Shown here piece after piece: positions 52,704 through 53,100 of a stretch of DNA of 64,000 nt. Numbering within the stretch: the first letter of the stretch is position 1; each line of letters starts with the position of its first letter. The notes below the pieces were generated by a model. It was given only the letters and a program-made list of their open reading frames with translations, was not told where the DNA came from and did not search any database. The position numbers and the translations under genes were made by a program. This stretch comes from Bacteroidota bacterium (GTDB taxonomy: Bacteria > Bacteroidota > Bacteroidia > Cytophagales > Cyclobacteriaceae): contig JAFDYT010000002.1 in NCBI GenBank assembly GCA_018266055.1, positions 143,657 to 207,656 on the forward strand. The letters run 5' to 3'.

Positions 52704-52734
52704 TTGGAAACTCTACCAATTCACTATACGTTTG
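52704..52734 (+). promoter_or_regulatory. Promoter of the methionine operon
   Basis: TTG at 52704-52706, a 20-bp spacer, and TACGTTTG at 52727-52734 fit the Bacteroidota consensus closely. Transcription should start near 52740, a few bases before the riboswitch region. Confidence 0.7.
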
Positions 52735-52763
52735 TGTCATCATAGTCGGTGAGGCAATAGCTC

Positions 52764-52856
52764 AACCGATTTATAAAGAAGCGCGGAGAGACAGGCTCTA
52801 TGAAGCGCTAGCAACCCCCGAGAGGAAGGTGCTAATTCCTGAAATATAAACCGGTT
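52764..52856 (+). promoter_or_regulatory. SAM-I (S-box) riboswitch upstream of metY
   Basis: The SAM-binding core is recognisable. P1 pairs 52764-52775 with 52845-52856 (11 of 12 positions). P2 pairs AGCGC (52780-52784) with GCGCT (52805-52809). P4 is AGGAA/TTCCT around the diagnostic GGTGCTAATTCC (52829-52840). GCAACC-like text lies at 52811-52816. An extra upstream hairpin (52746-52769) uses the same 5' strand as P1 and could act as the competing fold. The right strand of P1 ends 6 nt before the ATG of a short leader frame, so SAM binding may hide that start. High SAM is expected to lower expression of the methionine genes. Confidence 0.88.
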
Positions 52857-52862
52857 AAAACC

Positions 52863-52976
52863 ATGAAAACACAAAACACCGCATCTGCAAGCCGTTTAGG
52901 CTTCAATCTCCAAAACAAAGCGAATTCAATTAACAATCCCTGCAACGCCTGTTGTTGCATGAAGTTTCGTTGCTGA
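52863..52976 (+). CDS. 37-residue Cys-rich leader peptide (candidate)
   Basis: ATG at 52863, TGA at 52974. Five Cys codons fall in the last 11 (NPCNACCCMKFRC), preceded by a Ser/Asn-rich ordinary segment. No domain is recognised. It lies between the SAM-I riboswitch and metY, the gene that incorporates sulfide into homocysteine. Stalling on Cys codons when cysteine is scarce would be a natural signal for sulfur supply, as in Cys-rich leaders described in mycobacteria. Two alternative RNA stems follow directly. A role as a regulatory leader is inference. A tiny stable protein that binds metal through its Cys cluster is the alternative. Confidence 0.55.
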   Translation: MKTQNTASASRLGFNLQNKANSINNPCNACCCMKFRC

Positions 52977-53003
52977 TTTCCGGCGAAGCGCCTACAGCAA
53001 CAA
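52950..53003 (+). promoter_or_regulatory. Candidate attenuator with two mutually exclusive stems
   Basis: GTTGCTG (52969-52975) can pair with CAGCAAC (52995-53001) around a nested GGCG-AAG-CGCC hairpin. The consecutive Cys codons (TTGTTGC, 52952-52958) can instead pair with GCAACAA (52997-53003). Both use 52997-53001, so they exclude each other. No U-tract follows, so the output would be translational or Rho-dependent, if real. Beyond this, up to 53100, I see only a repeated TTCAATCATT. Confidence 0.4.
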
Positions 53004-53100
53004 ACTAGCTTATGGTCTGCCAGGTGACAGGTAAGGCTACGGCTACGTCAACCATCTAATTCAATCATTCAGTTATTCAATCATTAAAAAATTAAATACC

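Follow-up and report, generated by a model that had tools for sequence, protein, structure and literature searches.

A SAM-I riboswitch abutting a cysteine-codon leader frame: a probable two-input leader of metY-metX-hom in Bacteroidia

The metY-metX-hom operon of a Cyclobacteriaceae bacterium is preceded by a leader that probably takes two inputs, with a SAM-I riboswitch gating the translation of a Cys-codon sensor. In the window (the whole 64,000-nucleotide stretch of DNA analyzed), this leader was found to comprise a promoter, a single SAM-I aptamer, a 37-codon open reading frame (ORF) and a further 124 nt (52977-53100) before the metY start at 53101 (Table 1). All elements named in the initial annotation, including the 124 bp between the frame and metY, were found at the positions given for them. 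That annotation had also proposed that control by SAM and control by Cys-tRNA are layered on the one leader; conservation supports the double control, which we refine from mere layering to probable gating. The placement of SAM-I next to a Cys-codon sensor is well supported, and gating of the leader ORF by the riboswitch is probable. The leader is real and conserved and, as judged from sequence, of a two-sensor type; its parts are of known kinds, and their coupling and a downstream hairpin are new to this analysis.

Table 1. Features of the metY-metX-hom leader and operon in the window.
Feature	Position	Strand	Basis
Bacteroidota sigma-A type promoter (TTTG, 20 nt, TACGTTTG)	52703..52734	+	sequence, by eye
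P0 hairpin, 3' arm running into P1 5' arm (candidate anti-P1)	52744..52771	+	fold prediction
SAM-I riboswitch aptamer	52768..52852	+	RF00162 70.3 bits, gathering 44.4, E 2.1e-14
37-codon leader ORF ending in Cys cluster	52863..52976	+	intact ATG-to-TGA frame; cluster recurring in 89/110 metY leaders
Helix A: ORF codons 52963-52975 paired with anti-Cys segment CAGCAACAAACT (52995-53006)	52963..53006	+	MFE fold of window leader
Hairpin H, GUGAC in apical loop	53006..53045	+	12 pairs; two-sided changes in alignment
metY, O-acetylhomoserine sulfhydrylase	53101..54423	+	TIGR01326 676.6 bits, cut-off 495.1
metX, homoserine O-acetyltransferase	54420..55460	+	NF001209 344.8 bits, cut-off 331
hom, homoserine dehydrogenase	55482..56741	+	NF004976 326.2 bits, cut-off 205

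The claim of a SAM-I riboswitch held in a covariance search, in which RF00162 was matched from model position 1 to 108 with the S-box core present (GGTGCTAATTCC at 52828-52839) and the P4 positions missing in the Rfam alignment. This was the only Rfam match above gathering score within the window, and from it SAM binding and switching by the aptamer are putative. The promoter claimed previously was borne out by eye, with TTTG at 52703-52706, a 20-nt spacer and TACGTTTG at 52727-52734, and in 62 of 87 leaders, versus 12.6 in shuffles, a TANNTTYG box was also detected 5' of the aptamer core, at a median distance of 98 nt. The available text of a flavobacterial transcriptome study gives TAnnTTTG as the sigma-A consensus (PMC9723704). 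Within the operon, metX scored below the TIGR01392 cut-off and carries a GTG start codon by mechanical listing. A same-strand gene for a TPR-repeat sensor histidine kinase (window 50895-52646) lies immediately 5' of the leader.

The leader ORF was found to encode a 37-residue peptide (MKTQNTASASRLGFNLQNKANSINNPCNACCCMKFRC) with Cys at residues 27, 30, 31, 32 and 37, in agreement with the earlier description of an intact frame (52863-52976) with five Cys codons among its last 11. A known protein family was rejected for this peptide, which had 0 matches to NCBIfam and Pfam at E values up to 1. Short frames are common, and a frame of 12-75 codons with at least three Cys in its last 12 was present in 186 of 20000 Markov shuffles (0.9%) of the window leader, such that the frame might be ascribed to chance. 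This explanation deserves almost no credence, as it is refuted by conservation in two sets of loci and by the selection on codons described below.

For the first set, 146 relatives were searched, a MetY match was obtained in 112 genomes and 110 leaders were analyzed after eight rows were dropped (seven paralogues of 50-52% identity, and G104, 61%, at a contig edge). Under the rule that an ATG-started frame be 15-70 codons long and have three or more Cys among its last 12 codons, 89 of the 110 metY leaders passed; a SAM-I core was detected by pattern in 96 and both features in 81. The 21 leaders that failed included 15 with a SAM-I core. The eight passing leaders without a pattern core were judged by a laxer test, in which the full 900 nt upstream were scanned, and the core pattern overlooks some aptamers (G055 was positive by Rfam). 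When the cored leaders were restricted to a 400-nt stretch, 81 of 96 passed compared to 92 of 4800 Markov shuffles (1.9%) and 0 of 96 reverse complements. For the second set, named GTDB loci, 70 of 80 passed, a set that overlaps heavily with the 110 leaders; here the rule also admitted GTG and TTG starts and frames of 12-75 codons, and all 70 hits shown begin with ATG. Passing isolates include Chryseolinea serpens, Chryseolinea lacunae, Pseudochryseolinea flava, Chryseosolibacter indicus, Parachryseolinea silvisoli, Marinoscillum furvescens and Cesiribacter andamanensis, and metagenome-assembled genomes labelled Sediminibacterium and Flavobacteriales are also among the passing loci. Loss of the frame or its Cys codons in relatives had been named as what would refute the proposal; by contrast, the cluster is kept in both sets while the remaining peptide drifts. 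In a sample of the phylum (40 leaders fetched from 127 genomes with a match), 7 of 14 leaders of the same class passed compared to 1 of 26 outside the class, though 18 of these 26 have a pattern SAM-I core. In G288 (L261), outside the class, a Cys-rich ORF, MNSRLNHSMSTTAIMHCCMMCMCMSCEEWLD, lies 5' of metY with no pattern SAM-I core.

Codon-level comparison of the 89 leaders revealed where selection acts. Cys accounted for 490 of 1068 residues (46%) in the last 12 positions versus 61 of 2642 (2.3%) before them, a share that is partly built in because the leaders were picked by their tail Cys; the median Cys count in the last 12 residues was 5, and Cys was the final residue in 70 of 89 peptides. 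TGY triplets were counted at 521, 109 and 32 over the three frames of the last 48 nt, with mixed codon usage (TGT 351, TGC 200). Within nine groups of close relatives, the residue was changed in 19 of 281 codon comparisons with Cys versus 465 of 1532 others. This codon pattern marks selection on the Cys codons rather than on a peptide fold, and the Cys cluster at the very end is, by these comparisons, the only conserved protein feature of the leader ORF. Met was also enriched in the last 12 residues (87 of 1068 versus 50 of 2642).

The very high density of Cys could alternatively mean that the peptide acts as sensor or product in its own right, in that a Cys-rich nascent chain would bind metal or react with sulfide or oxidants. 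The name CutF is reportedly given to a copper-sensing leader type to which such a reading may be likened. At termination, C-terminal residues have yet to leave the ribosome tunnel, and with Cys last in most of the peptides this would hold for the cluster; the number and spacing of the Cys residues also vary freely, and the linked genes that can be named are mostly sulfur genes. Thus, a sensing peptide is very unlikely here, even with a copper-sensing leader protein described, in the available text, for another system (PMC9973294).

We next consider the spacing between the riboswitch and the leader ORF. The initial annotation placed the frame 6 nt after P1, a distance that is reproduced by extending P1 by eye to 52856 and that becomes 10 nt with the Rfam P1 end at 52852. 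When 40 of the 89 poly-Cys metY leaders were run through Rfam, 38 matched, and the leader AUG was found 6-12 nt past P1 in 32 of these 38 (median 9). The six outlying gaps were two of 13-14 nt and one each of 23, 62, 1 and -7 nt; the aptamer end is possibly misplaced in the 23- and 62-nt cases, and in the 1-nt case (G007) a second ATG would make the gap 10. At poly-Cys SAM-I sites before genes other than metY the gap was 7-12 nt in 5 of 5, compared to an ATG at 6-12 nt past P1 in only 3 of 39 SAM-I sites without a poly-Cys frame. The distance from the core to the AUG is variable (22-90 nt in the 81 leaders with a core) and that from P1 nearly constant, and control of leader-ORF translation by the riboswitch is therefore suggested. 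The 3' side of P1 can hold a ribosome site in SAM-I riboswitches, according to the accessible portion of one study (PMC2258182), and on the simplest reading SAM-bound P1 would mask the start region of the leader ORF in like manner. Of 81 leaders, 61 had both anchors, and a P0-type hairpin abutting P1 was predicted in 48 of these. Covariation of a P1 extension was rejected, since its pairing in 37 of 61 leaders was not above that of swapped partners (mean 28.9, maximum 38), and we thus only infer the switch itself.

SAM-I sites before other genes served as controls, 24 from earlier sampling and 20 chosen among the matches listed. By this approach, 5 of 44 sites were found to pass. Two of the five precede a RimK-like ATP-grasp gene (one of them in the window's own genome), one heads a ferredoxin-metZ-sulfite reductase-uroporphyrinogen methyltransferase-siroheme-cysH operon, one precedes sulfite reductase and one metZ; the siroheme gene, one ATP-grasp gene (L264) and one metZ (L270) were named by eye, and a number of the best matches score under the NCBIfam cut-offs. 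By contrast, none of 31 SAM-I sites, 18 before metH and 13 before CGS/CGL-type genes, has the poly-Cys frame; these genes were identified by eye on their N-termini, and one CGS/CGL-type protein was scanned. Among the remaining control sites, the frame was present at one of six metZ-like genes; a metX, one other gene and a site lacking a clear gene made up the rest. Cys-type leaders were thus found before metY, sulfite reductase, a cysH operon and metZ, with the RimK-like ATP-grasp gene as the exception, and on this sampling the poly-Cys frame appears to track steps of sulfur uptake and fixation, not methyl transfer.

These controls bear on whether the two sensors are independent, that is, whether SAM-I on its own controls transcription or metY and the poly-Cys leader works apart from it, with the spacing reflecting a constraint on the ORF start. 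The metH and CGS/CGL-type sites are in keeping with this reading, as are the metY leaders outside the class with SAM-I cores and hardly any poly-Cys frame, the existence of a poly-Cys ORF without a nearby SAM-I core in one relative (G091) and the failure of the P1 extension to exceed swapped partners. The P1-AUG distance, shared by metY and non-metY poly-Cys sites and rare among the controls, is hard to explain if the two are uncoupled. We therefore regard independent action as unlikely and continue with a riboswitch that would gate the leader ORF.

Between the leader ORF and metY, a segment complementary to the Cys codons (GCAACAA type) and a hairpin, H, were found after the stop codon in the source genus, which supplies 38 of the 40 aligned sequences, and in two further genera of its family. 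The predicted duplex of codons and anti-Cys segment had a mean of -9.6 kcal/mol versus -4.9 kcal/mol for letter-shuffled codon segments (40 sequences), and reached -8 kcal/mol or lower in 32 of 40 with the codons and in 36 of 40 with the codons or the post-stop arm, all within these three genera. Pairing of this kind raises the alternative that the (UGY)n run serves in RNA pairing and that its translation is incidental, the run being matched by a conserved anti-Cys segment in the genus. This is a scarcely credible account: TGY stays in frame even where other codons intervene, the start-codon spacing is conserved, and among the listed rows from other families an anti-Cys segment was seen by eye only in G076 and G084, yet the Cys cluster is kept. 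The run is accordingly better read as codons of a translated sensor.

Hairpin H was aligned from 40 sequences, with G006 left out as a doubtful match and G044 as a duplicate of G061. The hairpin had 90.8% of cells paired and 54 two-sided changes, versus 12.3 in shuffles and a maximum of 10 for slid versions. RNAalifold alone predicted only 3 pairs; because the 12-pair structure was drawn manually on the alignment, part of its advantage over slid versions is built in. The two-sided changes compared to shuffles are better evidence for H, and related rows inflate those too. Further pair types were not above shuffles (18 versus 16.8). With strict filters, exactly one site was matched in 43 of 146 genomes, on the metY strand and 26-634 nt upstream of metY, and the model was built from 40 of these 43 sequences. 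At the ten far sites (at least 492 nt from metY; L042, L045, L054, L057, L060, L061, L067, L072, L075 and L038), an OsmC-like gene, named by eye, lies in between and H stays with the leader. The covarying hairpin appears to be a lineage-specific RNA element, new to this analysis. Its identity as a dispersed repeat was ruled out by the single match per genome, and no second Rfam family was found between the ORF and metY (best others E 0.37, 0.48 and 1.5, far below gathering). Pairing of the H loop with the metY start (UGACA with UGUCA of AUGUCA) was not supported, as ATGTCA is present in 31 of 33 H-bearing and 10 of 14 H-less cases; the comparison covers metY-first genes, with the H-less ones from the source genus, and OsmC-type first genes mostly start with ATGTCT. 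GUGAC (window 53024-53028) is found in the H loop of 40 of 40 aligned sequences, with one change there allowed by the collection pattern.

In the whole-leader MFE fold of the window, helix A forms and H in its covarying form does not, and H forms when 52977-53060 is folded alone; thus the two may compete. No terminator-like site was found in the window leader (52640-53110), nor was a terminator/antiterminator of the classical SAM-I type found after P1 in this interval. Intrinsic terminators were not enriched among the poly-Cys leaders (8 of 89 versus 33 of 445 shuffles), and with no U-tract by eye H was ruled out as one. The leader was therefore not filed as a classical terminator attenuator. 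The restriction of H and the anti-Cys segment to the source genus and two others means that the output step is not conserved.

We propose the following model, in which ribosome stalling at the Cys codons, the sign of the response and the route to metY are what we infer. With SAM absent, the A/U-rich 3' arm of P1 would be free and ribosomes could load on the leader ORF; with SAM present, P1 would mask the ribosome landing zone and the ORF would be silent. When Cys-tRNA is short, a ribosome paused at the Cys codons would keep them from pairing with the anti-Cys segment, and when Cys is plentiful, the ribosome would complete the ORF and depart, such that helix A could form beside or instead of H. 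The open state might lead to operon expression via Rho escape, mRNA stability or translation, not via an intrinsic terminator, and the leader would in this way sense both end products, SAM and Cys. Counting against a gate, its logic would repress if either product is high, and induction if either is low might be expected. Tentatively, and with less confidence than for the window leader, these leaders may form a widespread Bacteroidia family in which the expression platform of the riboswitch is the start of an amino-acid-sensing leader, with SAM permitting the measurement of Cys and H as output.

The sulfur metabolism encoded by the source genome (estimated 100% complete) was examined with respect to these two end products. 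No match to PAPS reductase (PF01507) or sulfite reductase (PF01077) was detected in this genome. CysE was matched only below threshold (best TIGR01172 score 48 bits versus a cut-off of 210.65), an absence that is weak since the cut-off is reached in just 8 of 14 control genomes. A CBS-like protein scored 505.9 bits with TIGR01137, for which the cut-off of 510.25 is reached in 0 of 14 control genomes; no other CysK-type match above 70 bits, and hence no stand-alone CysK, was found besides this gene, itself the best cysKM match. Four strong PF01053 proteins are also present. With no CysE or CysK over cut-off, no PAPS or sulfite reductase and a CBS-like protein present, MetY probably feeds both SAM and Cys, in that homocysteine from sulfide fixation would supply SAM and, via reverse transsulfuration, Cys, as judged from these absences.

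A description of a SAM-I riboswitch combined with a Cys leader ORF was not found in the literature searched, mainly the main texts of openly available papers. The mycobacterial poly-Cys ORFs were reportedly found to be leaderless by Canestrari in 2020. Poly-Cys leader peptides are known in Actinobacteria, where, similarly to the ORF described here, a short ORF ending in Cys codons precedes sulfur genes and no clear intrinsic terminator is seen in Mycobacterium; by contrast, the available text mentions no SAM riboswitch, and here the ORF lies ~9 nt after SAM-I P1, in Bacteroidia, before metY (PMC1262725). Cys-responsive attenuation is reported in mycobacteria in the accessible portions of two further papers (PMC13236596, PMC9094748). 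The uORFC-8-2 element before cysS in Rhodobacterales is likewise described, as far as the available text goes, with tandem Cys codons in a stem and proposed ribosome-mediated attenuation, but differs in a U run consistent with an intrinsic terminator, only two Cys codons, no riboswitch and another gene and phylum (PMC8632094). The SAM-II metA leader of Sinorhizobium meliloti resembles the present one in that the ribosome site is sequestered, with the controlled gene starting 74 nt downstream, and differs in its SAM-II aptamer, a Rho-independent terminator and no amino-acid-sensing peptide mentioned in the available text (PMC9373788). Compared to other SAM-I riboswitches (RF00162), the full aptamer scoring over gathering is shared, and what follows the aptamer here is the start codon of a leader ORF rather than that of the first operon gene. 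The Salmonella mgtA leader is said to have multiple sensors and short ORFs in the manner of mgtCBR; to our knowledge, both respond to other signals, with no sensing of SAM or Cys. More than one sensor, including short ORFs, is indeed described for the mgtCBR leader in the accessible text (PMC3641672).

Few leader peptides appear to be described for this phylum, to judge from the available parts of the literature. Those parts include clues to leader-peptide attenuation before amino-acid operons in a flavobacterial transcriptome, with Cys not named (PMC9723704), and short ORFs within long 5' UTRs in a Bacteroides transcriptome (PMC7366714). If true, the present model would describe a riboswitch that acts via a tRNA-sensing leader peptide and reads both end products of one branch point. 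It offers a model of a two-input gate, a DNA-only means of finding sulfur genes in Bacteroidia that may be under Cys control and, in H, a conserved RNA hairpin as a further element for study.

Poly-Cys ORFs were also sought away from metY. No convincing example turned up in the ~1.5 kb upstream of 23 PF01507 (cysH/cysD-type) loci from 18 relatives; some of these loci have a pattern SAM-I core, and one 15-residue frame (L304) satisfied the rule. The idea of a general Cys regulon in the genus is therefore unsupported. A pattern search for four Cys codons plus stop gave many matches in other frames among those listed, and when these loci were read together with 20 more sites that were fetched, nine ORFs passed: one metY leader, five without a plausible gene downstream and three in G091. 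The latter (L361, L330 and L364) precede sulfite reductase (by 271 nt), a SusC-like receptor (by 190 nt) and a peroxiredoxin-like gene (by 304 nt), with the genes named by eye and no SAM-I core within 130 nt, and may represent a possible Cys regulon in that genome. In the source genome, a second SAM-I and poly-Cys leader (L032/L284, G000:C6:83490-83598, minus strand) precedes a RimK-like ATP-grasp gene; its peptide reads MKKHLKN...NQSCCC, and its AUG lies 7 nt past P1.
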